NCBI GenBank assembly: GCA_030425425.1
Contig: JAUIAO010000039.1
Location: 1 to 59,031 of the forward strand
Source of the DNA: Bacteroidia bacterium
GTDB taxonomy: Bacteria; Bacteroidota; Bacteroidia; Cytophagales; Cyclobacteriaceae
Reading direction: 5' to 3'
Length of the DNA stretch: 59,031 nucleotides
This document shows, one piece after another, positions 17,027 through 31,987 of the stretch (the stretch's first letter is position 1; each line of letters begins with the position of its first letter). The position numbers and the translations under genes are program-made. The notes under the pieces were generated by a model. It ran no database searches. It had not been told where the DNA came from and worked only from the letters and a program-made list of their open reading frames with translations.

Positions 17027-17656
17027 TTACAAATATTGAGAAATATCGCCAATACCTTGTCTCACAATCACGGGTTCATCTTCAGTGCAATCCACTACGG
17101 TGCTTGGTTCGTTTCCACCAAATCCACCATCTATCACTATATCAACGAGGTTTTCAAATGCCTCAAAAATCAGGCTGGGATCTGTGGAATACTCAATGAT
17201 CTCATCACTATCCAGTATTGATGTTGTAATAATCGGGTTGCCCAGCTCTCTGACAATAGCTCTGGGAATATTGTTGTCTGGTACTCTGATACCTACTGTC
17301 TTTTTACGTGCATTGAGTATTTTGGGGACTTTACTGGATGACTCTAAAATATAGGTGAAAGGACCAGGCAGTGACTTCTTCATCAGCTTGAAAATGGGAG
17401 TTTCTACTCTCTTCGTATACTCTGACAGGTGACTCAGATCATGACAGATAAACGACAGGTTAAGGTTTTTACCTTTAATTTCCTTAATCTGCTTTATTTT
17501 CTCAATGGCTTTTGAGTTGAAAATATCACATCCCATTCCATATATGGTGTCAGTAGGGTAAATGATCACACCACCATCTCGAAGTACCTCTACTATCTGG
17601 CGAACCTTTCTTTCGTCTGGGTTTTCCGGATATAGTTTTATAAACTCTGCCTTCAT
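17027..17656 (-). CDS. L-threonylcarbamoyladenylate synthase (Sua5/YrdC/YciO family)
   Basis: A 209-residue YrdC-fold protein. The family makes threonylcarbamoyl-AMP from threonine, bicarbonate and ATP for the t6A37 modification of tRNAs reading ANN codons. Family signatures are [11 protein letters not shown] near residue 35, the [14 protein letters not shown] segment, [13 protein letters not shown] and the closing STVVDCT...VRQGIG. The length fits the short YrdC/YciO type without the extra Sua5 domain. YciO paralogues share these motifs, so the true t6A role is likely but not certain. It sits immediately upstream of the WbqC gene. The divergent neighbour is inositol-phosphate synthase. Confidence 0.85.
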
Positions 17657-17778: not shown

Positions 17779-18828
17779 ATGATCAAAGTAGCGATAGCCG
17801 GTGTTGGAAATTGTGCCTCTTCATTTATTCAGGGCATTTCTTTTTATAAAAATGATAGCGAAACAAAAGGATTTGTAAGGAAACAAATCGGAGACTATCA
17901 AATCAAAGATGTACAGATTGTGGGAGCGATAGATGTAGACAAACGTCTGGTCGGTTTAGATGTAGCTCAAGCCATATTTGCTGGTAGTAACACTGCTGAG
18001 AAGTTTTCAGATGTTCCTGAATATGGAGTAAAGGTGGTTAAAGGTCATACTCTGGATGGTGTGGCTCCTCATATGCATGATTCATTTCAGGTGGACGAAA
18101 ACCAGGCACCTATAGACATAGTGCAATATTTAAAAGATACTGAAGCAGAGTTTTTGATATGCTACTTACCTGTAGGAAGTGAAAAGGCAGCTAAATTTTA
18201 TGCTGAGGCCGCTCTGGAAGCAGGTGTTGGGTTCATTAATGCCATTCCTGTATTTATCTGTTCACAACCGGAGTGGAGTGATCGGTTCAAGCAGGCAGGG
18301 TTGGTTTGTGCAGGTGATGATATCAAATCGCAATTTGGAGCGACTTATCTTAACCGAATATTGGTAGAAGGCCTTATGAATAGAGGTTTTAACATCGACA
18401 ACCTTTATCAACTGAATGTAGGAGGTAATACTGATTTTGAAAACATGATCGATGAATCTAGACTTCAGTCGAAACGTATTTCAAAAACTTCTGCTGTAAC
18501 TACTCTTTTCAAAGAGGGCGAAGCACCTGCATTAAGAATAGGACCAAGTGATTATGTGCCTCACCTCAAAGACGCGAAGATTTGTTATATCAATGTTAAT
18601 GGTACTCAGTTTGGTAATCAAAAGTTTGAACTTGAGTTGAAGCTTAAAGTAGAAGACAGTCCCAATAGTGCAGGAGTAATGTTAGATGTTGTAAGGCTAG
18701 CGAAAGTGGCTAAAGACAAAGGTTTATCCGGAAACATTCCGGTAGTTTCTGCCTTTGGTTTCAAATCTCCGGCGGATCGTCTGAATGAAACAGAAACGCT
18801 CAGGATGTTGGATGAATTTTTGGCTTAA
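17779..18828 (+). CDS. ino1: Inositol-3-phosphate synthase (MIPS)
   Basis: NAD-dependent isomerisation of glucose 6-phosphate to myo-inositol phosphate, the committed step of inositol synthesis. The 349 residues match the short actinobacterial/archaeal type. The Rossmann motif opens the protein (VAIAGVGNCASSFIQGISFY). Further family segments are IVGAIDVD, CYLPVGSEKAAKFYAEAA, GDDIKSQFGATYLNR and LNVGGNTDFENM. It converges on the serine palmitoyltransferase-family gene with a 13-bp gap. With the nearby cytidylyltransferase (20123-20857) and CDP-alcohol phosphotransferase (22075-23013) it suggests inositol lipid synthesis. Cytoplasmic. Confidence 0.93.
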   Translation: MIKVAIAGVGNCASSFIQGISFYKNDSETKGFVRKQIGDYQIKDVQIVGAIDVDKRLVGLDVAQAIFAGSNTAEKFSDVPEYGVKVVKGHTLDGVAPHMHDSFQVDENQAPIDIVQYLKDTEAEFLICYLPVGSEKAAKFYAEAALEAGVGFINAIPVFICSQPEWSDRFKQAGLVCAGDDIKSQFGATYLNRILVEGLMNRGFNIDNLYQLNVGGNTDFENMIDESRLQSKRISKTSAVTTLFKEGEAPALRIGPSDYVPHLKDAKICYINVNGTQFGNQKFELELKLKVEDSPNSAGVMLDVVRLAKVAKDKGLSGNIPVVSAFGFKSPADRLNETETLRMLDEFLA

Positions 18829-18841
18829 AAAAACAGAAATA

Positions 18842-20026
18842 TTATTTCAATTCAAGTTTTCTAAACTCAAGGTCTATTTTTTCAATGGCGATATCAATTT
18901 GCTCTTTTGAATGAGTAGCCATGAGACTGAATCTGATGAGCGTATCTTCAGGGGCAACAGCAGGAGAAATAATTGGATTGACAAATACTCCATCATTTAG
19001 CAGGTTAGTAGTCAGTTCAAATGTCTTCATATAATCTCTAACATAAATAGGAATGATAGGTGATGCCGAGGTTCCTGTATCAAAACCTAACTCATCTAGA
19101 GCTCTTTTAGCATAGTGCGTGTTTTCCCAAAGTTTCAGTCTATGTGAATCATCTGATTCAATGATATTCAGTGACTCCAAAGCCGCTGCAGCAGATGCAG
19201 GAGTAATGCTGGCACTAAAAATCATGGATCGAGAATGATGTTTTAAAAAATTGATTGTATCAGAATCACTGGCAATAAAGCCACCTAATGAGGCCAATGA
19301 TTTACTAAAAGTACCTCCGATCAAATCAACCTGATCAGTAAGCCCAAAATGTGACGGTGTGCCAGCTCCGTGATCGCCTATCACACCAATTGCATGAGCA
19401 CAATCCGACATCACTGTCGCATTGTACTTTTGGGCAAGTTCAACGATTTCCGGAAGTTTGGCCAGGTCACCTTCCATGCTGAAAATACCATCTACTATGA
19501 TTAGTTTGAATGCGTCATCTGGGCATAACTGAAGTTTTTTCTCCAATGACTCCATGTCATTATGTCGAAATTTCAAACTCTTTGCTAGTGACAGTCTGCT
19601 ACCTTCGATGATGGATGCATGTACTAATTCATCCATGAGGATGTAATCATTGCGAAAAGTCAGGGTAGGAATCACACCAACATTTACCTGGAAACCAGTG
19701 CTATAAATAAGTACAGCTTCCTTGTTAAGAAAATGGGCCAATCGCTCCTCCAATTCTTCATGTAAAGCCAAAGTACCATTGAGAAACCTTGAACCGGCGC
19801 ATCCAGAACCATATTTTTTCATCGCATGATTTGCGGCTTCAATGATCTTTGGGTGATCTGTTAGTCCCAAATAGCTATTTGACCCAAACATCAATACTTC
19901 TTGACCATTGACATTAACCGTGGTTCCTTGCTCTGATTGAATCTTCCTGAAAAATGGGTACAGACCTAATTCCTTGACTCTTTGAGGTTCTGTATACTGA
20001 CTGGTTCGTTCCCGAAGTTTACTCAT
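18842..20026 (-). CDS. spt: Serine palmitoyltransferase-family PLP enzyme
   Basis: Alpha-oxoamine synthase that condenses serine (or a related amino acid) with a fatty acyl thioester, the first step of sphingoid-base synthesis. The 394-residue, soluble protein resembles Bacteroides serine palmitoyltransferase closely (EVLMFGSNSYLGLT, GSGCAGSRFLNGTL). The PLP-site residues are visible: H136 in DELVHASI, D208/H211 in SDCAHAIG and the Schiff-base K242 in GGTFSKSLASLGGF. Relatives use glycine (KBL), alanine (BioF) or cysteate (sulfonolipid synthesis). The inositol-lipid context favours sphingolipid, but I cannot exclude a sulfonolipid role from sequence alone. It has its own promoter (20099-20128) containing a palindrome. 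Confidence 0.87.
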   Translation of the reverse strand: MSKLRERTSQYTEPQRVKELGLYPFFRKIQSEQGTTVNVNGQEVLMFGSNSYLGLTDHPKIIEAANHAMKKYGSGCAGSRFLNGTLALHEELEERLAHFLNKEAVLIYSTGFQVNVGVIPTLTFRNDYILMDELVHASIIEGSRLSLAKSLKFRHNDMESLEKKLQLCPDDAFKLIIVDGIFSMEGDLAKLPEIVELAQKYNATVMSDCAHAIGVIGDHGAGTPSHFGLTDQVDLIGGTFSKSLASLGGFIASDSDTINFLKHHSRSMIFSASITPASAAAALESLNIIESDDSHRLKLWENTHYAKRALDELGFDTGTSASPIIPIYVRDYMKTFELTTNLLNDGVFVNPIISPAVAPEDTLIRFSLMATHSKEQIDIAIEKIDLEFRKLELK

Positions 20027-20043
20027 AAATCATTTTGTGAAAA

Positions 20044-20087
20044 TCCCAACTAAATACTTGCAACCAGTTAAGTGAAACTAGTTGGGA
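20044..20087 (-). promoter_or_regulatory. Inverted repeat in the leader of the spt gene
   Basis: TCCCAACTA (20044-20052) and TAGTTGGGA (20079-20087) are a perfect 9-bp inverted repeat separated by 26 bp. It lies between the promoter and the start codon at 20026. It could be an RNA stem-loop in the leader or a protein-binding site. No T-run follows it on the minus strand. Confidence 0.45.
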
Positions 20088-20098
20088 ATTAAAGAGAG

Positions 20099-20128
20099 CA
20101 AAAATATACAACGTTGTACCAATCAAAA
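20099..20128 (-). promoter_or_regulatory. Promoter of spt with palindromic spacer
   Basis: On the minus strand TTTTG (20124-20128), a 17-bp spacer and TATTTTTG (20099-20106) match the Bacteroidota promoter. The 12-bp perfect palindrome TACAACGTTGTA (20107-20118) fills most of the spacer and touches the -7 box, the classic position for a repressor. The -33 box overlaps the last codons of the upstream cytidylyltransferase gene. Confidence 0.65.
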
Positions 20129-20857
20129 ATTAAGATTCGTAGTGATCTCCAAATCAGACTGATTATCTACATCATTCCAGAGATATCCTAAAATATCTCT
20201 AGTCTCTGCTTGCTTCTTTTTAACCAGAAAGTTGACCATGTCAGAGATGGAATATTTTTCTCTTTCAAAACACTGCTTTAGCGTGTGAAATACCTCCGGT
20301 TTCATATAAAATAACCCCGTGTCGTAACGATTGTATTCATCAAGCATTTTCCCAATATTGAGAATCTGTCCCTTATCATTAATCAGCACTCTTGTAACAT
20401 CCTCTATATCAATATGATGATTACTTTCTGAAGGTACGTCAACAGCCAGATAAAGTGATTTTTTTGTTTTAGTCTCTAGTATTTGTTTTTTAAATTCTTC
20501 AAGAATTTTTGGATCAAAAACATGATCTCCCATTGTGAGAAAAAAACCACTCTGAGCATTTTGATTCACCCAATCTTCTGTCACACTGATCGAATAACCG
20601 TTCTCCAGATCATATTGATCATTATGTGTGATATCAATGTTTACATGATAACGCTCAGATAGCAAGCCAACTACATCTCTTATGGGTTGCGGATTATGAC
20701 CAGTTACAAGGCAAAAGTGGTCACAGCCTGTTTTTGAGAATTGCATTATATGCCTTTCAAGCAGTGAAATCCCATTCAATTCAATCAATGATTTTGGTTT
20801 TCCAGTATCAAGTCTTGAATTTCTTCCTGCCACAAGTATGATGCATTTCATCTTCAT
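20123..20857 (-). CDS. Inositol-phosphate cytidylyltransferase-like nucleotidyltransferase
   Basis: A 244-residue NTP-transferase-fold protein. The N-terminal nucleotide-binding loop is CIILVAGRNSRL (a variant of LAAGxGxRL) and PKSLIEL follows. The central TMGDHVFDP, and VDIEDVTRV-like and DTGLF-type blocks (here IDIEDVTRVLI and YDTGLFYMKPEVF), resemble CTP:inositol-1-phosphate cytidylyltransferases of archaea and Thermotoga. Those enzymes make CDP-inositol for a CDP-alcohol phosphotransferase partner. Both inositol-phosphate synthase and such a partner lie within 3 kb, which supports the assignment. Other sugar-phosphate or choline-phosphate substrates remain possible. The start could be the first or third codon. 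Confidence 0.7.
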   Translation of the reverse strand: MKMKCIILVAGRNSRLDTGKPKSLIELNGISLLERHIMQFSKTGCDHFCLVTGHNPQPIRDVVGLLSERYHVNIDITHNDQYDLENGYSISVTEDWVNQNAQSGFFLTMGDHVFDPKILEEFKKQILETKTKKSLYLAVDVPSESNHHIDIEDVTRVLINDKGQILNIGKMLDEYNRYDTGLFYMKPEVFHTLKQCFEREKYSISDMVNFLVKKKQAETRDILGYLWNDVDNQSDLEITTNLNF

Positions 20858-20921
20858 TCTGTAAAAATACGACTACTTGATATGATTGATAAATCAAAGT
20901 TTATTTTCATTCGCAAACTGC

Positions 20922-20929
20922 TATTTTTG
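20922..20929 (+). promoter_or_regulatory. Candidate -7 element of the GNAT-like gene
   Basis: TATTTTTG matches TAnnTTTG and lies 24 bp upstream of the ATG at 20954. No TTTG was found at -33. Confidence 0.45.
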
Positions 20930-20953
20930 AAGGCTCCAATCTTTTAAGTCTGT

Positions 20954-22078
20954 ATGGCATATTACTTAAATGAAGTCCGATCAATTTCAGAGCTGAAACA
21001 GTTCATTCGTTTTCCTATGGGATTGTATAGGGATAATGAATTCTATGTTCCTCCTTTGATGGATTTTGAGCTAAGTACTCTTGATAGAAAAAAGAATCCT
21101 GCTTTTGACCATGCTGACGCCAGGTATTGGGTGGTAAAAGATGAAACCAATAAAATAGTTGGGAGAGTAGCAGGAATTATCTTGAATGCTGAATTGGAAA
21201 AAGAAGGAAAGGTTCGTTTTGGTTGGATCGATTTCATAGATGATTTTGAGGTATCGAAATTATTACTGAATTCTGTAACTGCCTGGGGAAAAGAAAAGGG
21301 TGCCACTAGACTTCATGGGCCTATGGGATTCACAGATATTGATTTTGAAGGCTCTTTGATAGAAGGTTTTGATTTTATGGCTACCCAAGCCACGATTTAC
21401 AATTACCCGTATTACAATGATCACTATGAACGATATCGACTGAATAAGGCTGTGGATTGGGTAGAACGAAGAGGCTTGGCTCCAGATAAATTTTCGGATC
21501 GGCTCCCAAGAATTAACAGAATTGTCAGAGAGAAATATGGATTCAAGTCGCTGGACGCTAAGAAAAAAAAGACCTTAAAAGCTTATGCCCCAGAGATTTT
21601 TGAGCTTTTAAACACGACTTATTCAGACCTCTATGGATATTATCCTCTTTCCAAGAAACAAATAGATTATTACACAGATCAATATTTCGGATTTATCAGA
21701 AAGGATTTCGTCAGTATTGTCCTTGATGAGCAAGACAATATCGCTGGAATGGCCATTTGTATCCCATCTATTTCTCGTGGACTCAGAAAAGCAAAAGGCC
21801 GACTATTCCCTTTTGGTTTCATTCACATTTTACGGGATTTTTATTCAAATCATACGATGGATTTATTCCTGATAGGAGTACTTCCAAAGTATCAAAAATC
21901 GGGTGTAAATGCGGTAGTACTACATGATATAGTTGCTGGACTGATTAAAAATAAAGTTCGTTTTACAGCCACAGGTCCAATGCTTGAAGGAAACACTAAC
22001 GTTCAAAACTTATGGAAAGAATTTTCAGAAATCACTGATAATCAGATTAAGCGAAGATGTTATATCAAAAACATTTAA
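20954..22078 (+). CDS. GNAT-like acyltransferase, candidate N-acyltransferase of lipid synthesis
   Basis: A 374-residue protein of a GNAT-like family widespread in Bacteroidota and some proteobacteria. Its N-terminal block runs from IRFPMGLYRDNEFYVPPL through KKNPAFDHADARYWV to VGRVAGII, and a GNAT-like core follows near the C-terminus (LIGVLPKYQKSGVNAVV). No signal peptide or clear membrane segment is visible. It lies between the CDP-inositol-type enzymes and opposite spt. Because bacterial ceramide synthases are described as GNAT-fold N-acyltransferases, this is a candidate for acylating the sphingoid base. That is inference from fold and place, not from active-site evidence. It converges with the CDP-alcohol phosphotransferase gene with a 4-bp overlap at the stops. 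Confidence 0.72.
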   Translation: MAYYLNEVRSISELKQFIRFPMGLYRDNEFYVPPLMDFELSTLDRKKNPAFDHADARYWVVKDETNKIVGRVAGIILNAELEKEGKVRFGWIDFIDDFEVSKLLLNSVTAWGKEKGATRLHGPMGFTDIDFEGSLIEGFDFMATQATIYNYPYYNDHYERYRLNKAVDWVERRGLAPDKFSDRLPRINRIVREKYGFKSLDAKKKKTLKAYAPEIFELLNTTYSDLYGYYPLSKKQIDYYTDQYFGFIRKDFVSIVLDEQDNIAGMAICIPSISRGLRKAKGRLFPFGFIHILRDFYSNHTMDLFLIGVLPKYQKSGVNAVVLHDIVAGLIKNKVRFTATGPMLEGNTNVQNLWKEFSEITDNQIKRRCYIKNI

Positions 22079-23013
22079 GCTTTTACACCAGCATAATTTG
22101 ATTCGAATTTTGCCAGCAAGTTCTTATCCAATCTTTTTTGCCATTTCACCACTGCAAATAATGGAAAAAAGGTCACTATACTGAAATAAAAATACCAATC
22201 CATTCTCCCAAAGAGGCTTGTTACCATCATGACAGTACGATGAACATTAGTGCCACAAACGAGCGCCCACCATGTCATAATTGACTCATTCGTTTTTCGA
22301 TACAATTCACTGAATTTTTGACCTTGCACTCCAAAAGTGTATTGTTCGAACTTCTCACGATGCGTTCTTTCACGCCCATGAAACATGGTTTGCTTACGCA
22401 TATAATCTAATTCGAGGTAGTAAAGTACAAGGTAGATAAAACCCTTGTTTTCAGGTTTTTTCATTTCGTCTAAATAAGCAATTCGGCTACCGGAATCCGC
22501 ATTGACATAATAGACGAATTCAGCTTTATAGTATTCATATACACATGATTTGGCACTATGAGCATATCCGGCTATGATGGCGATTGGGAAAATCCATAAT
22601 CCATATCCGTGTTCTAGAAAATAAATACAAGCCCCAAAATAACAGGCTATGAACACTACAGTATCGATAGTTCCATCTAGCACCCTCCCAATATCACTGG
22701 ACTGTTTAGTCATCCGGGCAAGCTGGCCATCTGCAGAATCAAGAAGCCCTGAAAGAGTAATGAAAAAGCAAGCCCAAAGGATCATGACGACATCCTCTTG
22801 AAAATAAAAAAAGTAGCCTGCCAATGCTCCAACCAATAAACTGATAATGGAAATTTGGTTAGGTGTCATTGATAATCGCTTGCCAATCAAGGCAAAATAA
22901 TATCCAAAAAACCTGCTGAAATAAATGTCAAAAGTCTCTTCTACTTCGGGTAGTTTGATTGAGTCGTAAGCCTTGTGAAAATCCGTTTTGATTCGATTTA
23001 GAATAAATGTCAT
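22075..23013 (-). CDS. CDP-alcohol phosphatidyltransferase family enzyme
   Basis: A 312-residue integral membrane enzyme with the complete catalytic signature: D92 and D95-G96, A99-R100, G109, D113 and D117 (LDSADGQLAR, then IGRVLDGTID). About six hydrophobic segments are spread over residues 55-220 and 265-300. Family members move a phosphoalcohol from a CDP-alcohol to a second alcohol, or the reverse. With inositol-phosphate synthase and a CDP-inositol-type cytidylyltransferase nearby, transfer of phosphoinositol from CDP-inositol to a lipid acceptor is the simplest model. The alternative is a CDP-diacylglycerol-dependent phosphatidylinositol-phosphate synthase. The extended C-terminal part (after about residue 190) is unusually long for the family. 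Confidence 0.85.
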   Translation of the reverse strand: MTFILNRIKTDFHKAYDSIKLPEVEETFDIYFSRFFGYYFALIGKRLSMTPNQISIISLLVGALAGYFFYFQEDVVMILWACFFITLSGLLDSADGQLARMTKQSSDIGRVLDGTIDTVVFIACYFGACIYFLEHGYGLWIFPIAIIAGYAHSAKSCVYEYYKAEFVYYVNADSGSRIAYLDEMKKPENKGFIYLVLYYLELDYMRKQTMFHGRERTHREKFEQYTFGVQGQKFSELYRKTNESIMTWWALVCGTNVHRTVMMVTSLFGRMDWYFYFSIVTFFPLFAVVKWQKRLDKNLLAKFESNYAGVKA

Positions 23014-23044
23014 TTATGCTGGAATTATCGATGGGCAAAAGTAA

Positions 23045-24136
23045 TCATATAGGCTTTAAAAAAGTTTTGGATGAAAACTGACAAAATCCTTTCAGCAATT
23101 TCATGGTGTACTTTGATTTTAGTGAGGAATAAGAAGAGAATTCTGGCTGACTAGATTCTGTTGTCATTGGCTCTGAAACCATTCTGATAAATTTTTCAAC
23201 TAATTCCTTATCCTCCGAAACCATTACAACCTCCTGCTCGAAATGGTAACTCACCAAATCATAATTACTGCTCCCGAAGATGAGTTTCTTCCCATCAATT
23301 AGAACGGACTTGAGATGAAACATTCCCGGATAATGGAGCAAATTGAAATAGCCTTTGCTGTTTTCCTGCTGAAGATAATCCTGAAATAAACCCTTATTAT
23401 TTTCTGAAGGGGAAATAATTGTTACCTCCACACCTCTACGAGAAGCCTTTTTCAATTCACCCAAAAGAGGCTCCGAAACATACGGCGAAATGACCTTTAT
23501 CTCTTTTTGAGCTGTTTCAAAATGAGTAAAAAAATCCTGATAGAGCATTTCGCTTCGGCTTCCATTGAAAAAATATAGAGCCCCATTTTCCAATTGGATT
23601 TTACGGTTCTGGTTCTTGCCAGACCATGTTGCTAAAAAATCTTCAGATAAAGAACCGCCAACAGACTCATCATCCAACTCAATCATCATGTCATGCCAAT
23701 CAAAATTATGATCACTGAAGTTGATTCCGCCGATATAGCTCACTCGCCGATCAACAATCATCATTTTCTTGTGATTGCGCAATGGATATTTACTCATCAA
23801 AAAGCCAACAGGATTGGTGTATTTCACTTGAATACCATTATCCTCAGCCTTTCGAATGAGTGCTTTGGTATTCTCAATTTCCTGTCTGAAGCTTTTGTCC
23901 TTCAAGTATTTTGGCCCAAAAACAAAGTGATCGCTTATGACGACTTTCGAAAATGAATCAATCAATAGTCGCTTGTCTTTAGCTGGACTATCAAGCATTA
24001 ATTCAATGAGTTGTTCCCCAGCCGAGTCACCTTCAAAAGTCATTGCCTGCACATACAGGGACTTCCGAGCATCCATCGCTTGAGAATTGAATGCATCCAT
24101 AAATGCTTTTGACCCGACCAAAACCTGTGATTGCAT
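23045..24136 (-). CDS. Phospholipase D / cardiolipin synthase-like protein
   Basis: Contains two HKD motifs: HKKMMIVD (about residue 122) and HLKSVLID (about residue 274), each followed by Gly-Gly or Gly-Ser and Asn-Phe/Tyr as in the PLD superfamily. The open frame extends to 24187, but that start codon overlaps the start of the divergent gene and leaves no room for a promoter. The ATG at 24136 (363 residues) gives the usual PLD N-terminus (SKAFMDAFNSQ) and is preferred. The enzyme family transfers phosphatidyl groups (cardiolipin synthase) or hydrolyses phosphodiesters. It lies 31 bp upstream of the CDP-alcohol phosphotransferase gene on the same strand. No membrane anchor is obvious, so the substrate stays open. 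Confidence 0.82.
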   Translation of the reverse strand: MQSQVLVGSKAFMDAFNSQAMDARKSLYVQAMTFEGDSAGEQLIELMLDSPAKDKRLLIDSFSKVVISDHFVFGPKYLKDKSFRQEIENTKALIRKAEDNGIQVKYTNPVGFLMSKYPLRNHKKMMIVDRRVSYIGGINFSDHNFDWHDMMIELDDESVGGSLSEDFLATWSGKNQNRKIQLENGALYFFNGSRSEMLYQDFFTHFETAQKEIKVISPYVSEPLLGELKKASRRGVEVTIISPSENNKGLFQDYLQQENSKGYFNLLHYPGMFHLKSVLIDGKKLIFGSSNYDLVSYHFEQEVVMVSEDKELVEKFIRMVSEPMTTESSQPEFSSYSSLKSKYTMKLLKGFCQFSSKTFLKPI

Positions 24137-24147
24137 GTTTGATGTTT

Positions 24148-24155
24148 TACTTTTG
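24148..24155 (+). promoter_or_regulatory. Candidate -7 element of the mannosyltransferase-like gene
   Basis: TACTTTTG matches TAnnTTTG, 30 bp upstream of the ATG at 24186. It lies in the gap created if the divergent PLD gene starts at 24136. I see no well-spaced TTTG at -33. Confidence 0.45.
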
Positions 24156-24185
24156 GGAGCTGCAAGATTACGCAATAAACGTCTC

Positions 24186-25298
24186 ATGAAGATAGCTCAG
24201 GTATGTCCTTATGATTTCTCAAGACCCGGTGGAGTAAAAAACCATATCGAAAGTCTGTCAAAATACCTGAGACGACTAGGACATGAGGTTAAAATAATTG
24301 CTCCTGCTCCTAATGTGAATCAGGCTGAAGTTTATCATTTTGGCCGAAATAGAAGCTTGAATCTAGGCGGCACCAAAATCGATATCAATATTGCTCTTGG
24401 AGAGGAAAAAGATGCGCTCAAAACCTTCATTGATGAAGAACAATTTGACATCATCCACTTCCATACATTCTGGAATCCTGCGCTGCCTTTTCAGATCAGA
24501 CGTTACAGCAAAGCCAAACATATTGCTACTTTTCATGATACACCAAAAAGTGAATGGGTAGGAAAAACCGTGATGCCTCTGGCAGCTAAGATGGTGTTCG
24601 GATACATGGACGAAATCATTTCTGTAAGTGAAACCCAGTCGTCATACATCAGGCGATTCTCAAATCGAAAAATCCATATCATTCCGAACGGAATAGATCT
24701 CAATAGCTATAACCAGGCGGTAGAGCCAATTTCCAAATTTCAGGACGGAAAGTTCAATATACTATTTCTGGGAAGGCTAGAACCAAGAAAAGGACTCATC
24801 TACGCCCTGGAAAGCTTCAAAACTTTGAAGCAAGAAAATCCAAATCTTCGCCTAATTGTAGCTGGAGATGGTGATGAGGGGCTCATGGCAGAGCAATTTA
24901 TCTCCGAGAACCAATTGGAAGATATTGAGTTGCTCGGTTTTGTTTCTGAGGAAGAGAAACTTCAACTTCTAAAAACTGCTGATCTGTATCTCTCACCAGC
25001 GATTTACGGGGAGAGTTTTGGTATTGTACTTTTGGAATCAATGGCGATGGGCACACCGATGGCTGGGTTTGCAAACTCTGGTTATCTAAATGTACTGACC
25101 AAAGAACAAAAACGATTCTTTGTGAAACCAGAAGATACTCAAAGTCTTACCAAGAGTATTTATTGGTTAATGCAGAATGAAGAGGAGCGAGAGGTTTTGA
25201 AAATGATTGGTGAAAACGAGGTGAGAAAATATGATTGGAAATCAATTTCCAAAAACATTCAGTCGATTTACCATTCAATTCTCAGTCCTTCCGATTAA
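24186..25298 (+). CDS. GT4 glycosyltransferase, PimA-like
   Basis: A 370-residue retaining GT-B enzyme. The opening (MKIAQVCPYDFSRPGGVKNH) closely resembles mycobacterial PimA, the phosphatidylinositol alpha-mannosyltransferase, including the glycine-rich acceptor loop. The donor-site motif is GESFGIVLLESMAMGTP (EX7E), and FHTFWNPALP and NGIDL are also typical. The frame is open upstream to 24087, but the family N-terminus begins at ATG 24186. Given the inositol-lipid genes on both sides, a mannosyl (or other hexosyl) transfer onto inositol phospholipid or ceramide is the natural hypothesis. PimA-like similarity at the N-terminus alone does not prove the acceptor. The 3' end overlaps the converging transaminase gene by 17 bp. 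Confidence 0.85.
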   Translation: MKIAQVCPYDFSRPGGVKNHIESLSKYLRRLGHEVKIIAPAPNVNQAEVYHFGRNRSLNLGGTKIDINIALGEEKDALKTFIDEEQFDIIHFHTFWNPALPFQIRRYSKAKHIATFHDTPKSEWVGKTVMPLAAKMVFGYMDEIISVSETQSSYIRRFSNRKIHIIPNGIDLNSYNQAVEPISKFQDGKFNILFLGRLEPRKGLIYALESFKTLKQENPNLRLIVAGDGDEGLMAEQFISENQLEDIELLGFVSEEEKLQLLKTADLYLSPAIYGESFGIVLLESMAMGTPMAGFANSGYLNVLTKEQKRFFVKPEDTQSLTKSIYWLMQNEEEREVLKMIGENEVRKYDWKSISKNIQSIYHSILSPSD

Positions 25299-26397
25299 AG
25301 TATTCCTTTACCTTTTCAATTACCAACCGCATATCCGTCAAAGTCAAATCCCCAATGACTGCCATACGAAATGTGTTGCTTTCAGGAATTACACCAGGAT
25401 AAATGGTGATTTGTTCCTTGTACAAGAAGTCATGTAGGTCATTGAAATCCAAATCCGGCTTACTATTGAGATCAAGTGCCAAAAGGATTTTTGACTGATA
25501 GGCATCCGGTAAAAAAAACTGAAATCCCAATTCCTTAAACCCATCATAGAGCACCTGCCAGTTGGCTCGATAGCGCCTCCAACGCATCTCCACACCTTCC
25601 TCGAGAGTCTCAAGGATGGCCTCCATAAAAGCATAACAAATCTGTACAGGTGGAGTGAATCTAAGTTGATTTTTCTGCTGAAGGTTGTTCCATTGGCTAT
25701 ACAAATCAAAGTAAAATGCTCGCTGATTGGCTTTCAGTTCAGCAATTCTATCCTTATGAAAAACAACAAATGACAAGCCTGCCATCCCGTGAATGCACTT
25801 ATTACTAGACGAGAAAATATAGTCTATCGGAGTTTCCTGAAGATCGATCGGATACGCTCCATAAGAGCTCATCGCATCTACAATCAACTTCACCCCAACC
25901 TCTCGACAAACGGCTGAAATCTCTTCCAAAGGATTCATCATTCCTGTAGAAGTTTCATGATGAATGATAGCCAGGTGTGTGAATTTCCCTGAATTCAAGA
26001 CTGACTTTACTTTGGCAGGTTCCGGGTAGTCCCCAAAACTAAAAGCAGTGTCATATTCCAGCCCATAACTTTTGCAGATTTGCTCCATCCGCAATCCATA
26101 CGCGCCATTGGTGATGATCAGTACACGATCATTATCCCCAATTGCCGATACCAATGTGGCTTCCATTGCACCGGTGCCACTTGCCACAAATAGACCTACT
26201 TCATGGGTATCTGAACCATTGCCGATTTCCAGAATTCCATCGCAGATATCATGCATTAACTGACCAAACTCCTCTTCCCTCGGACAAATATCTTCTACGA
26301 TCATGGCCTCTTTCACTCTCTGAGAAGTGGTAGCAGGACCTGGATTTAGAAGTATGTTTCTGTTGATCGCTTTTTGATGTGTCAGTTTTCCGCGCAT
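25282..26397 (-). CDS. phnW: 2-aminoethylphosphonate:pyruvate transaminase family
   Basis: A 371-residue class V PLP aminotransferase. Family marks are LLNPGPATTSQRVKEAM at the start, CPREEEF, ASGTGAMEA, HHETSTGMMNP, DAMSSYGAYP and the lysine loop SSSNKCIHGMAG. PhnW interconverts phosphonoacetaldehyde and 2-aminoethylphosphonate (AEP). Here it follows phosphonopyruvate decarboxylase with a 1-bp gap and PEP mutase upstream, so it should run in the biosynthetic direction. It is the last gene of the three-gene operon and overlaps the end of the converging mannosyltransferase-like gene. Confidence 0.92.
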   Translation of the reverse strand: MRGKLTHQKAINRNILLNPGPATTSQRVKEAMIVEDICPREEEFGQLMHDICDGILEIGNGSDTHEVGLFVASGTGAMEATLVSAIGDNDRVLIITNGAYGLRMEQICKSYGLEYDTAFSFGDYPEPAKVKSVLNSGKFTHLAIIHHETSTGMMNPLEEISAVCREVGVKLIVDAMSSYGAYPIDLQETPIDYIFSSSNKCIHGMAGLSFVVFHKDRIAELKANQRAFYFDLYSQWNNLQQKNQLRFTPPVQICYAFMEAILETLEEGVEMRWRRYRANWQVLYDGFKELGFQFFLPDAYQSKILLALDLNSKPDLDFNDLHDFLYKEQITIYPGVIPESNTFRMAVIGDLTLTDMRLVIEKVKEYFNRKD

Positions 26398-26398
26398 G

Positions 26399-27517
26399 TT
26401 ATTTCAGGTTATTCATGAAATCTCTCTTATTTTCAACCGGTTTGATCGTCGGTCTTCCCAAATCTTTTCTTGCCCCTTTTCTCACTTTAACTTCGAGAAA
26501 GACAGGCCCTTCAGTAACAACAAATTGCTCCCAAAGATTCTCCAATTCGGTTTTGGTTTCAGCCTTGAATACACTTTTATAACCACACCCTTCTGCTACT
26601 TTCCCAAAATCCATATCAAAACCCACTGTCGGCTGACCGCCCACCGAATCATGACTTCCATTGTTAATGACGATGTGAAAATAATTTTCCGGAGCCTGAC
26701 TCGCAATGATGGCCGAACTCCCCATGTGCATCAGAAATGCCCCATCTCCATCCAGACAAAACACCTTTCGACCCTTCTTAGCCAAAGCAATCCCCAGAGC
26801 AATTTGAGAGGCATGACCCATACACCCGACAGTCAGAAAATCACGTTCATGACCAGAATGATCCGATGCCCGCTTTTCAAAAACCTCCCGGGAAGTTTTT
26901 CCTGTTGTGGAGACCACTACATCCTCGGTATTCAGTTGACCCAAGATCACTTTAACCGCATCCTCACGGTTCATTTCATAGTCAGGAACCTGAGGCAGAT
27001 TTTTCATTTTGTAAGAATCGAAAGTGCCTTTCCTCACCAGCAACACATACGGAGCCTGATGTTTTTCCATATAATGCACTGCCGTTTCTACCTGTTCTTT
27101 AGCCTCCTCTATTTCAGAAGAAAGAATATCATATCTGATTTCCATCGCATCAAGCAAAGTTTCACTGATTCTTCCTTGCTTCACATGCTGCGGCTCATCT
27201 TTTACTCCGGGCTCTCCACGCCAGCCAATCATGAGCAACATTGGAATGCTGTAAACCTCAGGGTCAACCAATGACGCTAGAGGATTAACCGTATTTCCAA
27301 AGCCGGAGTTCTGCATATAAACGAAAGGAATCTCGCCTGTTGCCAGGTAGTGACCTGCCGCCAATGCTATTGCTCCCCCTTCATTTGCTGCGATAATGTC
27401 ACTACCCGAATCTGCAATGCATCCTGCAAAATCTTTCAATAATGAATCTGGCACCCCCGTGCTGAAGTGGATGCCGTGGGATTTGATAAGGTCAAGAAAA
27501 GCCTGAGGGTTGAGCAT
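26399..27517 (-). CDS. aepY: Phosphonopyruvate decarboxylase
   Basis: Thiamine-diphosphate enzyme that decarboxylates phosphonopyruvate to phosphonoacetaldehyde, making PEP mutation irreversible in practice. The 372 residues are the usual size for this two-domain form. An N-terminal pyrimidine-binding domain (FSTGVPDSLLKDF, AANEGGAIALAAG) is followed by a C-terminal pyrophosphate-binding domain with the GDGAFLMHMG...NNGSHDS motif. It lies between PEP mutase (78 bp upstream) and phnW (1 bp downstream). Sulfopyruvate decarboxylases are related, but the neighbours decide for phosphonate. Confidence 0.93.
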   Translation of the reverse strand: MLNPQAFLDLIKSHGIHFSTGVPDSLLKDFAGCIADSGSDIIAANEGGAIALAAGHYLATGEIPFVYMQNSGFGNTVNPLASLVDPEVYSIPMLLMIGWRGEPGVKDEPQHVKQGRISETLLDAMEIRYDILSSEIEEAKEQVETAVHYMEKHQAPYVLLVRKGTFDSYKMKNLPQVPDYEMNREDAVKVILGQLNTEDVVVSTTGKTSREVFEKRASDHSGHERDFLTVGCMGHASQIALGIALAKKGRKVFCLDGDGAFLMHMGSSAIIASQAPENYFHIVINNGSHDSVGGQPTVGFDMDFGKVAEGCGYKSVFKAETKTELENLWEQFVVTEGPVFLEVKVRKGARKDLGRPTIKPVENKRDFMNNLK

Positions 27518-27595
27518 ACAATTTTATTTTCGATTTACTTCCTTCAAAAATGGACAATAGGCTGGCTACTCACAATCTGTATGTGTCATCAGGCA

Positions 27596-28891
27596 CTAAT
27601 TCGGTAGGATTGTGAGAATTTCCTTTATGGACATACAATACTGATCAGCAGCTTCCAATGATCTCTTGTTTTCGAGAATCGAAAGAGCAGTTTTCTGCAT
27701 TGCAGGGAAAGCACTTCTTAGCAAGTGATTCGCATATATCACAATACTGAAACCAGCTTCTTGCAGTTCCTCTTCTGTGAAATGATTGTATGAAGAAGGC
27801 ACTGAAATCACCGGCACTTTCACCTCAAAATCCTGATAAGCTTTCATGAATTCAAGAATTTCCTTTCCGTCTTTATGTCGGCTATGGATCATGATTCCAT
27901 CCGCTCCGGCTTCTATGTAGGCCTTGGCTCTGGCCAAAGCATCTTCCATGCCTTTTTCTGCTATCAAGCTTTCCAATCGAGCAAAAATCATGAAATCATC
28001 AGTCATCTGGGCTTTCTTCCCTCTGGAGATTTTCTCCGAAAAACCTTCAATAGAATCCAGAGTCTGCTCTACTTCTGTACCAAAAAGTGAATTGCGTTTT
28101 ACACCAGTTTTGTCTTCAATGACGATAGCTGAAACACCGAGACGATCCAGATTTTTTACCAACATCTCAAAATGCTCAGGTATTCCTCCAGTATCTCCAT
28201 CCAGAATGATTGGCTTAGTAGTTACATCCAGAATATCATTAATGGTCTGAAAACGAGACGTTCTATCTACGTACTCTGTATCCGGCTTCCCTTTCGCCGT
28301 GGAGTCCGTCAAACTACTCACCCAAAGCGCATCAAACTCTCTGATTTCACCTTCTGCCTCGTACTTTGTTTCCTCCACGATCAAAGCTGAAATCCCGTTG
28401 TGCGATTCTAACACTCTCACTATATCCTTGGAATCCAACAATCTTCTTAGCATCCTTCTTCGGATATCAGGTGTCGTACCAACTTCTTTAAGGGCATTTC
28501 TCAGTCCGGTAGAAGAAATTCCATGTGTATATTCAGGTTCGATCAATTCTCCGCCCCATTCCTTGAGCATTTCTGTAACCTTCTGACGCACATGTCTCTG
28601 AGGGCCGGTTTTCCAATCACTGCCATGCACTACATAGTCAGGCTTAAGTTTTCGCAAGTTCTCTTCATAATCCAGCTCATATTGTGGAATGACCTCTTTA
28701 ACTCCTTTTAAGTTTTCGAGGATTTTCTTTCGCTCATCGTAAGACAAAAAAGGAATTCTGCTGAATTTGGCAACAGCCTTATCAGACAGCAAACCGACAG
28801 TCACCTCTCCCAACTCTCGTGCAATCTCAATGATATTGATATGTCCGTGATGGATCAGATCAGTCCCCATTCCCACATAAACTTGCTTCAT
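27596..28891 (-). CDS. aepX: Phosphoenolpyruvate mutase fused to an N-terminal cytidylyltransferase-like domain
   Basis: A 431-residue, two-domain protein. Residues 1-135 form a TagD/GCT-type nucleotidyltransferase with HHGH (14-17) and ISSTGLR. Residues about 150-431 form phosphoenolpyruvate mutase, with the signature EDKTGVKRNS (259-268), GDTGG and the IMIHSRHKDG block. The mutase converts PEP to phosphonopyruvate, the entry to nearly all natural phosphonates. Fusions of this kind are known from surface-polysaccharide loci that carry AEP in Bacteroidota. What the N-terminal domain activates is not settled. It heads the aepX-aepY-phnW operon and is divergent from a second cytidylyltransferase gene. 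Confidence 0.93.
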   Translation of the reverse strand: MKQVYVGMGTDLIHHGHINIIEIARELGEVTVGLLSDKAVAKFSRIPFLSYDERKKILENLKGVKEVIPQYELDYEENLRKLKPDYVVHGSDWKTGPQRHVRQKVTEMLKEWGGELIEPEYTHGISSTGLRNALKEVGTTPDIRRRMLRRLLDSKDIVRVLESHNGISALIVEETKYEAEGEIREFDALWVSSLTDSTAKGKPDTEYVDRTSRFQTINDILDVTTKPIILDGDTGGIPEHFEMLVKNLDRLGVSAIVIEDKTGVKRNSLFGTEVEQTLDSIEGFSEKISRGKKAQMTDDFMIFARLESLIAEKGMEDALARAKAYIEAGADGIMIHSRHKDGKEILEFMKAYQDFEVKVPVISVPSSYNHFTEEELQEAGFSIVIYANHLLRSAFPAMQKTALSILENKRSLEAADQYCMSIKEILTILPN

Positions 28892-28962
28892 ATATCTAGT
28901 TTCGTCTTTTAAATTCTAATTTCGAGGCAAATTAAGTTCAAATAAAGCGTTGGAGTGATCGA

Positions 28963-29682
28963 ATGAGTAAAAGAATTGAAACGGCGGTGATATTAGCGGC
29001 AGGCAGAGGCACCCGATTACAACCATACACTCACGACATACCGAAAGGCTTTATGCAAGTAGGTGATGAAAAGTTGATTGAGCGATCTATCCGACTGTTG
29101 AAAGAAAATGGGATCAAAAACATCATCATTGGTACGGGTCATTTGCATGAGCAATACGAAGATTTGGCTCTAAAAGAAGACCTAAAAACTTATTTGAGTC
29201 CTGATTTTGCAACGACAGGCAGTTTTCATACACTGTGTTTTGGCAGAGAGCTCATCAAAGAAGATTTTTTGCTCTTGGAATCAGATCTCCTTTATCATGA
29301 AGCTGCAATTCAATCATTATTAGAAGACCAGTCAGATGATGTGATTCTCTGTAGTGGGTTTACCAAATCGAATGATGAGGTTTATGTTTCCGTCCAAAAT
29401 GGATTGCTTCAAAACCTTTCTAAAAAGCAAGAAGAGCTGAATTCAGTAGATGCTGAACTGGTTGGAATCTGGAAAATATCTCAGAAATTGTATCATCAAT
29501 TGCTAAAACAGCACGTAACCTCCAGCGATGCACTTACGAAAGATTATGAAAAAGCAATTGCTGAGGAAGCACAAAACGGATACCGAGTTACCGTGAAAAA
29601 GCTGGAGAACCTAGCCTGGTGTGAAATAGACAATGAAGAGCATCTGGAAAGGGCTAAAAATCTAATTCTTCCAAGGTTATAG
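28963..29682 (+). CDS. PntC/LicC-like cytidylyltransferase (probable CTP:2-aminoethylphosphonate cytidylyltransferase)
   Basis: A 239-residue NTP-transferase-fold protein. The loop VILAAGRGTRLQPYT is followed by KGFMQVGDEKLIERSIRLL, then TGSFHTL and LLLESDLLYHEAAI. This pattern fits the LicC/PntC group, which couples CTP to phosphocholine or to 2-aminoethylphosphonate. The AEP operon starts 71 bp away in the opposite direction, which favours AEP as substrate and CMP-AEP as product. The converging LicD-like gene would then use it. It is a different protein from the cytidylyltransferase at 20123-20857, so the region holds three nucleotidyltransferase domains in all. Confidence 0.75.
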   Translation: MSKRIETAVILAAGRGTRLQPYTHDIPKGFMQVGDEKLIERSIRLLKENGIKNIIIGTGHLHEQYEDLALKEDLKTYLSPDFATTGSFHTLCFGRELIKEDFLLLESDLLYHEAAIQSLLEDQSDDVILCSGFTKSNDEVYVSVQNGLLQNLSKKQEELNSVDAELVGIWKISQKLYHQLLKQHVTSSDALTKDYEKAIAEEAQNGYRVTVKKLENLAWCEIDNEEHLERAKNLILPRL

Positions 29683-29683
29683 A

Positions 29684-30280
29684 TTAATCCTTTTCCCAAA
29701 AACCTGTTTCTTGATTTCTTTTGGCAACACTGCCTATGTATCCATAAACCTTTTCTAAATACCTCTTTATCTGACTGGGCGTACTCACTTTTTTACCCAG
29801 CATTTCTGCACTTTTAAGTGGATAGACCAATTCCTTACTAATCTTCTGACGCTCATTAGGCCATTTTGTCTCCTCATAACTCCTTACCTCATCACCCAGA
29901 TCTTCATAAAAGTAAATATCCACATCAAACCCTTTGTAATTGAAATACAACTTGGGGCCATGATGCCGATGTGAAGAATCATAAAACTTCACCTTTGGAG
30001 ACAACAAATTCCTTTTGCTCAGTACTTTTTCATAAGACTTTTCATGCATCCCAAAATCCACATCAATGTCATGTGGAAGTATTCCATGCTCTCTGTGATA
30101 ACCAAGCAACGTCCCAAAATCCAACCAATATTCCTCACCAACTTCATTGAGAAAATCTGCCGAAAGTTGAAAAAGCTCTTTCAATACCTTCATCTTGCGC
30201 TGGTTCTCCAATCCTACCAAGGCAAAAATATGGACATGTATAAATCGCTGTATATATTGGCTGATACGCAAAAGGTTCAT
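29684..30280 (-). CDS. LicD-family phosphotransferase
   Basis: A 198-residue nucleotidyltransferase-fold protein with the LicD signature LDFGTLLGYHREHGILPHDI followed by DVDFG. It has no membrane segment. LicD proteins move phosphocholine, or in some species AEP, from the CMP-activated donor to a sugar of a surface glycan. It converges with the PntC-like gene with a 1-bp gap and is nearly back-to-back with the Stealth-type gene (28 bp). The context suggests it attaches AEP to a glycan or glycolipid. At 198 residues it is a short member of the family. Confidence 0.75.
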   Translation of the reverse strand: MNLLRISQYIQRFIHVHIFALVGLENQRKMKVLKELFQLSADFLNEVGEEYWLDFGTLLGYHREHGILPHDIDVDFGMHEKSYEKVLSKRNLLSPKVKFYDSSHRHHGPKLYFNYKGFDVDIYFYEDLGDEVRSYEETKWPNERQKISKELVYPLKSAEMLGKKVSTPSQIKRYLEKVYGYIGSVAKRNQETGFWEKD

Positions 30281-30308: not shown

Positions 30309-31208
30309 ATGGCGAAGATAGCGGTAGATTTAGTCTATACATGGGTAAATGGTGAAGATCCCGCACACATAGAGCGGTGGAAGAGCTATGCAGGCAATCC
30401 TCAGGATGTGAATCCTGAAAGATACCGAGATACCTATCAGCTATTAAAACATAGTCTAAGGTCTGTGGAAAAATACCTGAAATGGTATAGGAATATCTAT
30501 ATAGTTACTGCCCGACCTCAGGTACCAGAATGGCTCAATACCTCTCATCCAAAAATCAAAGTCTTACATCATGATGAAATCATCGACCCTCAATATTTGC
30601 CTACTTTCAATCCAAACTGTATAGAAAGTTTCCTTCATATGATTCCTGATTTGGCGGAGCATTTTTTGTATATCAACGATGATTTTTTGTTTGGGAGTGA
30701 AACTGATATTGAGGATTTCATGCCAAAAGGCAAATACAGGATTTTTAATACACTGTTTGGGGAAAACCTCAGTTGGCGAATTTATGATGGTAAAAATGAT
30801 GTGATTGGTCTGGGAGTCATTGAGCATACTCCGCTCTTTATTAAAAGAGAGTTCTGGGAAGAAATGACTAGAATTTATCCAGAAGAGCAGCATCGGACCA
30901 GAACTAATAAGTTTCGAAAAGATAATGACCTGATGACTTATAAGCTTTACAGGTATTACATGCTCAAATATCAGAAATCTGTGAGTAGGGCTATTTCTCT
31001 TCCAGAATTACTCAAGGTTAATACTTTTCATAAGATCATGAACAAGCTGCCTTATCAACAGAAAGCATTTAGAAAACTTGAAGAGAAACGGCCGAAATTC
31101 TATTGCCTCAATGATGATCAAAGAGACAATCCTAACCCTGAAGTGGTTAAACTGGTTCAGGCGTTTCTAGAAAGAAATTACCCGAATAAAAGTCAGTTCG
31201 AGATTTGA
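30309..31208 (+). CDS. Stealth-family sugar-phosphate transferase
   Basis: A 299-residue protein with the conserved Stealth regions. CR1 is DLVYTWVNGEDP at the N-terminus, CR2 is RYRDTYQLLKHSLRSVEKYL with YIVTARPQVPEWL, and CR3 includes FNPNCIESFLHMIPDLAEHF and YINDDFLFG. Stealth enzymes transfer hexose-1-phosphate (for example GlcNAc-1-P) to build phosphodiester-linked capsule or to decorate glycans. The human relative is GNPTAB. Together with LicD and Wzi-like genes it points to a phosphate-rich surface glycan. The 3' end overlaps the converging glycosyltransferase gene by 16 bp. Confidence 0.85.
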   Translation: MAKIAVDLVYTWVNGEDPAHIERWKSYAGNPQDVNPERYRDTYQLLKHSLRSVEKYLKWYRNIYIVTARPQVPEWLNTSHPKIKVLHHDEIIDPQYLPTFNPNCIESFLHMIPDLAEHFLYINDDFLFGSETDIEDFMPKGKYRIFNTLFGENLSWRIYDGKNDVIGLGVIEHTPLFIKREFWEEMTRIYPEEQHRTRTNKFRKDNDLMTYKLYRYYMLKYQKSVSRAISLPELLKVNTFHKIMNKLPYQQKAFRKLEEKRPKFYCLNDDQRDNPNPEVVKLVQAFLERNYPNKSQFEI

Positions 31209-31987
31209 TCCAGGAGCTTCACCATGCTCGTATCTTCAATCTCATTACATCTTCGATTTTTTTCCCGGAATCCCTCTTCACCTTCTGGCCTGCCTCGTGA
31301 AACGTTTTGTCTATTGAGATATTCCTCAAAAGATTTGATGTAATAGTGATTGATTCTCCATCCAATATCAGCAGAGTCTGTAAGCATTGAACCAAGCTTA
31401 TACCATTTGTAATGCCACCAGTGTGCACTGTATGCAAATCGATTGTCAGAAAGAAAATCCCCATTGGCCAGATCTTTATGATCCGAATAATCACTTTCCC
31501 GCTTTGTATAAGCTCTTAATACATCTTGATCCGGCATGGTCTCATACCCATTGTTTCCAAAGTTGACTCGGGGTACTTTCACACCTTTGATTTTAGAATG
31601 ATCGACAGATTTTAACCAACTGACAAGACTTAGTTCATTTCCCAAAGGAAAAAGAAATTCATCTACATCAATTTTCATGACCCATTGAAAGTCCTTTCGG
31701 TAGTTTTTTGCGGCATGGGCAAAACCAATGTGATTCTTATTACGCTGATAAAATTTTGTTGGCCCATCGTATTTGGTACCATCCCACATGGTCCAGAGGT
31801 GCCGTGTCACATACCCTTTCTCTTCGTATGGACGAAGTATTTCTCTTGCCTCATCCCCTCCATCCTGATCATATAGATAGAAATGATCTACTCCAACGGC
31901 AATATGATAGTCCAACCATTCCCTGAGGTAAGGGTTTTCGTTTTTGAAATTGGTGGCGAATGTGAGGAAATGTTTTTTGTTGCTCAT
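31193..31987 (-). CDS. Glycosyltransferase, GT92/GT2-like
   Basis: A 264-residue protein with FATNFKNENPYLREWLDYHIAV near the N-terminus, HFYLYDQDGGD, and KIDVDEFLFPL as the metal-binding DxD. These are the marks of the DUF23/GT92-like glycosyltransferases found in bacterial surface-glycan clusters. Donor and acceptor are unknown. No membrane segment is visible. Its stop region overlaps the Stealth gene end, a tail-to-tail overlap that recurs in this region. Confidence 0.78.
   Translation of the reverse strand: MSNKKHFLTFATNFKNENPYLREWLDYHIAVGVDHFYLYDQDGGDEAREILRPYEEKGYVTRHLWTMWDGTKYDGPTKFYQRNKNHIGFAHAAKNYRKDFQWVMKIDVDEFLFPLGNELSLVSWLKSVDHSKIKGVKVPRVNFGNNGYETMPDQDVLRAYTKRESDYSDHKDLANGDFLSDNRFAYSAHWWHYKWYKLGSMLTDSADIGWRINHYYIKSFEEYLNRQNVSRGRPEGEEGFREKNRRCNEIEDTSMVKLLDQISN

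Follow-up and report, generated by a model that had tools for sequence, protein, structure and literature searches.

Described routes to inositol lipids and the locus examined here

Bacteroides thetaiotaomicron has an inositol-phosphodihydroceramide pathway (BT_1522-1526) with a serine palmitoyltransferase (SPT) and an inositol-phosphate synthase (MIPS), which proceeds through CDP-diacylglycerol, phosphatidylinositol phosphate (PIP) and phosphatidylinositol (PI) with an AUR1-like transferase (PMC9246714). In the same paper, Heaver et al. 2022 (PMC9246714) put forward an alternative cluster of Bacteroides vulgatus and Prevotella, given as unconfirmed, in which a nucleotidyltransferase (NTase) makes CDP-inositol, a CDP-alcohol phosphotransferase makes the diacylglycerol form of PI (PI-DAG), and a HAD protein leads to the ceramide form. 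Here, we analyze seven genes at positions 17779 to 25298 of a 59,031-nucleotide stretch of Bacteroidia bacterium GCA_030425425.1 (hereafter the window; contig C94 of the 5.85 Mb genome G000). At better than even confidence, we read them as a dedicated inositol-sphingolipid cassette in which CDP-inositol would donate phosphoinositol to ceramide and the product would then receive a hexose.

The locus shares with the alternative cluster of Heaver et al. a MIPS, an NTase and a CDP-alcohol phosphotransferase (PT), and with them the proposed use of CDP-inositol and the lack of a PIP intermediate. The two differ in layout: the alternative cluster holds a HAD gene, has an LPG-synthase-like gene nearby and is proposed to pass through PI-DAG, whereas the window cluster has no HAD match and encloses an SPT, a GNAT-family acyltransferase (GNAT), a phospholipase D (PLD)-family enzyme and a PimA-like glycosyltransferase. 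CDP-inositol activation, which the first-pass annotation singled out as the distinctive element, had thus already been proposed for Bacteroidota in that paper (PMC9246714). A layout closer to that of Heaver et al. (NTase, PT, LPG_synthase_TM and HAD genes) occurs in genome G028 (L024:7114-18549), together with an SPT, a GNAT, an epimerase-family gene and a PfkB kinase. The G028 NTase is barely IPCT-like (E 0.0085; IPCT, CTP:inositol-1-phosphate cytidylyltransferase) and the genome has no MIPS match; its cluster may serve a head-group other than inositol, or inositol that is phosphorylated rather than made.

The bifunctional IPCT-DIPPS of Archaeoglobus (4MND) resembles the window system in its IPCT family, CDP-inositol donor and PT fold; in the window the two proteins are separate, the PT belongs to another family, and lipid genes stand in the cluster. 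The predicted product class recalls the mannosyl-inositol-phosphoceramides of fungi, and the sugar enzyme recalls mycobacterial PimA; fungi draw phosphoinositol from PI, and PimA uses PI. In the Caulobacter ceramide diphosphoglycerate pathway, the sphingolipid head-group is activated by the cytidylyltransferase CpgD, whose closest structure is Thermotoga IPCT (PMC12275187), and a CDP-alcohol-type enzyme, CC_1159, has been proposed (PMC11324152); the head-group there is glycerate, whereas that of the window would be inositol. The principle of a CDP-activated head-group is therefore known or proposed, and what varies here is the set of genes, together with a probable direct use of ceramide. It is marked by a recognizable IPCT, ceramide genes inside the cluster, the constant presence of PLD and PimA-like partners, and the lack of a HAD gene. 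We found no description of a head-group-activated route to inositol-phosphoceramide in the literature searched, and no mannosylated bacterial inositol-phosphoceramide among the matches listed in the open-access literature, where neither Marinoscillum nor Ekhidna appeared among the matches listed for lipids.

Organization and conservation of the cassette

The seven genes are closely packed, with intergenic gaps of -4 to 96 bp. They encode MIPS (INO1; 17779-18828, + strand), the cassette's own SPT (18842-20026, -), a stand-alone IPCT (20123-20857, -), a GNAT-family N-acyltransferase that is a candidate ceramide synthase (20954-22078, +), a candidate CDP-inositol:ceramide phosphoinositol transferase (PT; 22075-23013, -), a PLD-superfamily enzyme with two HKD motifs (23045-24187, -) and a PimA-like GT4 glycosyltransferase that is a candidate inositol mannosyltransferase (24186-25298, +). 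SPT and IPCT share an orientation and lie 96 bp apart, as do PT and PLD at 31 bp. Five of these genes (MIPS, IPCT, PT, SPT and the PimA-like glycosyltransferase) had been named at or near these positions in the first-pass annotation; the GNAT and PLD-family genes are additions.

In a phylogenetic tree, the window IPCT falls in a clade of stand-alone IPCTs with a support of 99/100. The clade has 13 rows from 11 distinct genomes, two pairs of rows each coming from one genome; the PntC rows and the G028 NTase lie on long branches, and their placement is unsure. MIPS adjoins IPCT in all 11 genomes (cut by the contig end in L095) and a PT is likewise present in all 11 (partial in L083, a short frame in L088). 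The PLD gene was found at 10 of the 11 loci (cut in L086 and L087), and a PimA-like GT4 lies at most about 1.5 kb from it in 10 of the 11 genomes (by coordinates in L084-L087), with one small frame separating the two genes in L084 and in L085, and two frames doing so in L023. Seven genomes have SPT and GNAT; no SPT is in view in L083 (a 5.5-kb contig), L088, L089 or L095. The gene grouping is not due to chance, because MIPS, IPCT and PT occur together in ten other genomes of the clade, six of which also have SPT and GNAT.

MIPS has Sua5-, WbqC- and ClpC-like neighbors in the window, in L082 (Marinoscillum pacificum MRN461), and in L084 and L085. Because this flank is the same, the cassette appears to hold an old position, and where species lack it, loss is a likelier cause than several separate gains. 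The idea of a mobile cassette was set aside on the same conserved flank.

Within the genus, MIPS, IPCT, the window-type PT, PLD and the PimA-like GT4 are present in three of six genomes (G000, G002 and G003), while G001, G004 and G005 had no match to any of the five at the limits used. G000 and G003 each have one extra weak PT match (E 3e-6 to 5e-6), which in G000 is PssA. The same three genomes carry a second SPT in the cluster (641-647 bits). Elsewhere, all six have an SPT of 589-601 bits followed by CerR-like and GNAT genes (in the window genome, a housekeeping copy on C44 at 601 bits), so each of the six has sphingolipid genes. The extra SPT comes and goes with the inositol genes.

Predicted synthesis and activation of inositol phosphate

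The three best PDB matches of the protein encoded at 20123-20857 are all IPCTs (4JD0, 2XME and 4MND; 66-70 bits), and the next are GlmU and the choline enzyme LicC at 21 bits; the cytidylyltransferase thus does not group with sugar or choline enzymes, which bears out its earlier designation as IPCT-like. As a control, the second NTase of the window (28963-29682) matches 6PD1 at 168 bits and IPCTs at 29-32 bits. Since this control prefers 6PD1, the PDB test separates the two kinds of NTase. We take 6PD1 to be PntC; its PDB entry is titled 'nucleotidyl transferase/aminotransferase'. The possibility that 20123-20857 encodes a sugar, choline or phosphonate NTase was set aside on the PDB scores.

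The NCBIfam model for bifunctional IPCT/DIPPS, NF041135 (cut-off 580), scores 117.7 bits with the IPCT and 39.1 with the PT, which are separate genes, and both stay below the cut-off. This model is unspecific, being the top NCBIfam match of the PntC-like gene as well (81 bits), so the IPCT call rests on the PDB margins, the neighbors and the tree. Of the residues named for Thermotoga IPCT, R16 and K26 correspond in the alignment to R15 and K22 of the window enzyme, which are invariant in 12 sequences. The third named residue, D112, has no Asp at the same offset; the invariant D111 of the window aligns with D109. Altogether, the stand-alone enzyme very probably makes CDP-inositol.

The distribution of the gene points the same way. 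Of 392 genomes sampled from the phylum, IPCT relatives at E <= 1e-10 were counted in 36 and MIPS in 65. MIPS is present in 34 of the 36 IPCT genomes versus 31 of the 356 others (Fisher p 1.6e-28, not corrected for kinship). It lies within the stretch around IPCT, adjoining it in the gene listing, in 33 of the 36, window included, which further bears out the IPCT call. The exceptions are G180 (L170), where MIPS is on another contig, and G363 (L187) and G050 (L202), whose genomes have no MIPS match; in L202 the IPCT was not re-found. Near home the gene is scarce, occurring in 4 of 29 relatives, with one of these fused to a PT.

A wider scan, across bacterial as well as archaeal genomes, turned up 367 IPCT relatives, of which the best 80 loci were kept (L082-L161). 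A MIPS match is present in 65 of these 80, and IPCT and the PT motif are in one frame in 60, the form known from archaeal IPCT-DIPPS. These 60 loci (within L090-L161) often lie beside MIPS and come from many bacterial and archaeal phyla; their carriers include metagenome-assembled genomes that are not obviously hyperthermophile. Triads of PT, MIPS and IPCT with a related long PT (90-142 bits) also occur in other classes of the phylum (L184, L185, L186, L188, L190, L192 and L198) and represent possible further CDP-inositol lipid routes.

The MIPS at 17779-18828 matches PF01658 at 102 bits (cut-off 27). It also matches TIGR03450, the mycothiol type, over its full length at 389 bits, under the cut-off of 638. 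Its best PDB chain is 1GR0, mycobacterial INO1 (340 bits), and it scores 172 bits with 6K96, a five-membered-cyclitol-phosphate synthase, and 44 with 7NWR, an inositol-3-phosphate synthase. Taking 7NWR to be the B. thetaiotaomicron MIPS, that enzyme is apparently of another family than the window MIPS (44 bits versus 340 for 1GR0). Two distant MIPS families occupy the slot beside IPCT, that of the window and a longer one exemplified by Ekhidna lutea. We argue from this swap that inositol phosphate is the common substrate. The genes L084:10736-12049 and L085:10843-12156 are of the different MIPS family (44-46 bits to the window MIPS) in the same slot with the same Sua5-WbqC-ClpC flank, an apparent replacement in place.

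Ceramide genes

The cassette SPT passes the Bacteroidota SPT model NF047600 narrowly (642.5 bits, cut-off 640) and matches the PDB entries 8GUH/3A2B at about 500 bits, with the next at 279. It carries GTFSKS at residue 238, which we take to be the PLP-lysine motif. Assignment as glycine C-acetyltransferase or BioF was set aside on the NF047600 score and the PDB margin. In the phylum sample, an SPT accompanies IPCT in 36 of 36 genomes versus 193 of 356 others, a comparison that uses an arbitrary line of E 1e-140, is confounded by kinship and carries little weight. The window genome has a further SPT-family relative with one in-frame TGA (G000:C114:16065-17093, 205 bits), which may reflect a damaged gene, read-through joining two frames or a fault in the assembly.

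The GNAT protein matches PF00583 at 23.0 bits (cut-off 20.7) and has no PDB relative by sequence search. A paralogue follows the SPT and the CerR-like gene at the housekeeping locus in all six genomes of the genus, a context that makes it a candidate bacterial ceramide synthase. Among the matches listed in the open-access literature for ceramide synthase and GNAT, none was on point by title.

Relatives have fuller clusters. The Ekhidna locus L085 has, between IPCT and PT, genes for SPT, an NAD-epimerase-family protein (CerR-like by place), GNAT, SDR, FabA-like, KAS and ACP-like proteins, the last at 20.8 bits, below the Pfam cut-off of 32. On the far side of PT, a desaturase gene whose product has the Lipid_DES domain found in sphingolipid Delta4-desaturases (E 4.6e-16) precedes PLD. 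At the same place, G002 has a Lipid_DES gene and two more desaturase-family genes; the three fatty-acid-desaturase-family genes in a row (L022:7029-9952) could be ceramide desaturases or hydroxylases. The window cluster is shorter and is without the reductase-, ACP-, KAS-, FabA- and desaturase-like genes seen in L085. At the window genome's second sphingolipid locus, L026, a KAS-like frame was noted by eye.

Phosphotransferase, PLD-family enzyme and glycosyltransferase

The PT has the class I CDP-alcohol phosphotransferase signature (D1xxD2GxxAR...GxxxD3xxxD4) and fold, and the full catalytic motif reported earlier was recovered as D-x2-D-G-x2-A-R-x8-G-x3-D-x3-D at residues 92-117. It scores 39.7 bits against the PIP synthase model NF045883 (cut-off 170) and 43.0 against the BT1523-type model NF052561 (cut-off 350). 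The predicted structure most resembles those of enzymes whose CDP donor is soluble, with AF2299 and IPCT-DIPPS nearest, which is consistent with the CDP-inositol donor supposed in the first-pass annotation. A profile of the PT family gives 437-512 bits for complete members, most of which built the profile, and at most 52 for fused or archaeal PTs.

The PLD-family protein matches PF13091 at 102 bits, keeps both HKD motifs and has no hydrophobic segment by a simple scan. Because it is in constant company with the cassette genes, we suggest that it acts on the same lipid.

The GT4 open reading frame (24087-25298) opens on TTG, while the alignment to PimA begins at the ATG at 24186, the likely start. 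The protein matches PimA in the PDB (4N9W/2GEJ) at 147 bits, with the next chain at 52, so that its description as PimA-like holds; no NCBIfam model exceeded its cut-off among the best 25 of 35 matches. Another GT4 of the genome (L026:5646-6785) instead matches 3C4Q/3C48 at 66 bits and PimB' at 41, and does not list PimA. We consider it rather probable, from these similarities, that the PimA-like enzyme adds a hexose, itself probably mannose, to the product.

Proposed route and alternatives

In the route we propose, MIPS would convert glucose-6-phosphate to inositol-1-phosphate, and IPCT would combine this with CTP to give CDP-inositol. Ceramide would be supplied by the second SPT, the GNAT that resembles a ceramide synthase, and a ceramide reductase whose gene lies elsewhere in the window genome and within the cluster in some relatives. 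With CDP-inositol as donor, the PT would then pass phosphoinositol directly to ceramide, so that inositol phosphoceramide forms without a PIP or PI intermediate, and the PimA-like enzyme would place a hexose, probably mannose, on the inositol. The gene identities rest on similarity, clustering, co-occurrence and the predicted PT fold, and from these we infer which reactions take place and in what order, as well as the acceptor and the sugar. Where the first-pass annotation left the acceptor as ceramide or diacylglycerol, the extra SPT, the GNAT and the desaturase-like gene in relatives lean toward ceramide, and direct phosphoinositol transfer to ceramide seems to us fairly probable. The fuller proposal, that marine Cytophagales make mannosyl-inositol-phosphoceramide by a direct CDP-inositol:ceramide transferase in an all-or-none cassette with its own SPT and acyl machinery, is more tentative, and we place it a little short of an even chance.

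Several observations weigh against the proposed route. Neither AF2299 nor IPCT-DIPPS, the two nearest folds of the PT, is a lipid-processing enzyme, and the PT diverges faster than its neighbors, with 42-45% identity within the genus versus 84-85% for MIPS and 82-83% for SPT. Known PimA acts on diacylglycerol-type PI. The GNAT and CerR-like genes are candidates named for their context; the window genome's CerR-like gene is at another locus (L026), and a Lipid_DES match is absent from this genome and present in two of the six of the genus. At L088, L089 and L095, MIPS, IPCT, PT, PLD and GT4 occur without SPT or GNAT in the 17.7, 20.1 and 4.4 kb read; the acceptor of the core may therefore be a different one, or the ceramide may come from genes elsewhere. 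None of the 17 other MIPS genomes of the same class in the phylum sample reaches E 1e-10 for IPCT; most inositol users there must therefore manage without it. According to PMC4634129, the acceptors of those prokaryotic CDP-alcohol phosphotransferases that have been characterized are soluble, and enzymes acting on lipid acceptors carry three or four additional helices at the C-terminus.

One alternative is a route in which the PT makes PI from CDP-inositol and diacylglycerol and the glycosyltransferase makes a phosphatidylinositol mannoside, with the ceramide genes taking up phosphoinositol later or serving a separate lipid. The glycosyltransferase is closest to PimA, whose acceptor is PI, and SPT and GNAT are missing from the stretch read at 3 of the 11 clade loci. 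This is also the order that Heaver et al. propose for the gut alternative cluster (PMC9246714). Yet within the genus the extra SPT occurs where the cassette does and is missing where it is missing, SPT and GNAT stand in the cluster, where relatives add CerR-like, ACP-like and sphingolipid-desaturase-like genes, and no HAD or PAP2/AUR1-like match was found among the 20 window proteins scanned (16382-39199, the Sua5-like 17027-17656 left out). We regard this route as unlikely, though deserving of weight. It is improbable that the PT is instead a PIP synthase joining CDP-diacylglycerol and inositol phosphate, as in B. thetaiotaomicron and Actinobacteria, with the cytidylyltransferase serving something else: the PT scores far under the cut-offs of 180, 350 and 170, its modeled fold more closely resembles that of soluble-donor enzymes, the window proteins scanned gave no match to a PIP phosphatase family, and the IPCT would be redundant, yet it lies near MIPS in 33 of 36 genomes.

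The nearest folds of the PT also bring to mind di-myo-inositol-phosphate, the compatible solute for which hyperthermophiles join CDP-inositol to inositol phosphate. The stand-alone genes in a separate, well-supported IPCT clade (99/100), the PT profile that parts family members from fused and archaeal PTs, and the clustering with SPT, GNAT, PLD and the PimA-like glycosyltransferase make this very improbable. There is as slight a chance, or a slighter one, that the PT uses CMP-aminoethylphosphonate for an aminoethylphosphonate (AEP) lipid. An AEP transaminase gene overlaps the GT4 end by 17 bp, and decarboxylase, PEP mutase and PntC-like cytidylyltransferase genes come next; against this, the stretches at ten other clade loci had no match to the transaminase, decarboxylase or PEP mutase, and the phosphonate module has PntC-like and LicD-like genes of its own.

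Adjacent phosphonate module and downstream genes

The AEP module (25282-30280) looks separate from the inositol cassette, and no match to it was found in the stretches read at ten other clade loci. It comprises the AEP transaminase (25282-26397), phosphonopyruvate decarboxylase (26399-27517), PEP mutase fused to a CTP_transf_like domain (27596-28891), the PntC-like cytidylyltransferase (28963-29682; 6PD1, 168 bits) and a LicD-like gene (29684-30280). The PEP mutase thus has its own cytidylyltransferase-like domain despite the separate PntC-like gene next to it. After the LicD-like gene, 30309-31987 encodes a Stealth-family protein (CR1-CR4) and a GT92/GT2 protein, which suggests a surface glycan that may carry phosphonate.

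Implications

Heaver et al. left the CDP-inositol route of Bacteroidota unproven, and the locus described here is a cleaner test system for it, with a recognizable IPCT, a PT of a defined family, ceramide genes alongside, and a control within the genus of three genomes with and three without the cassette. In the proposed route it is the head-group rather than the lipid that is activated. If true, this product and a fungal membrane lipid would be convergent counterparts, reached by different routes. The cassette would then represent a route to inositol sphingolipids beyond AUR1-type exchange and the PI-DAG/HAD order, and would add a bacterial mannosyl-inositol sphingolipid.

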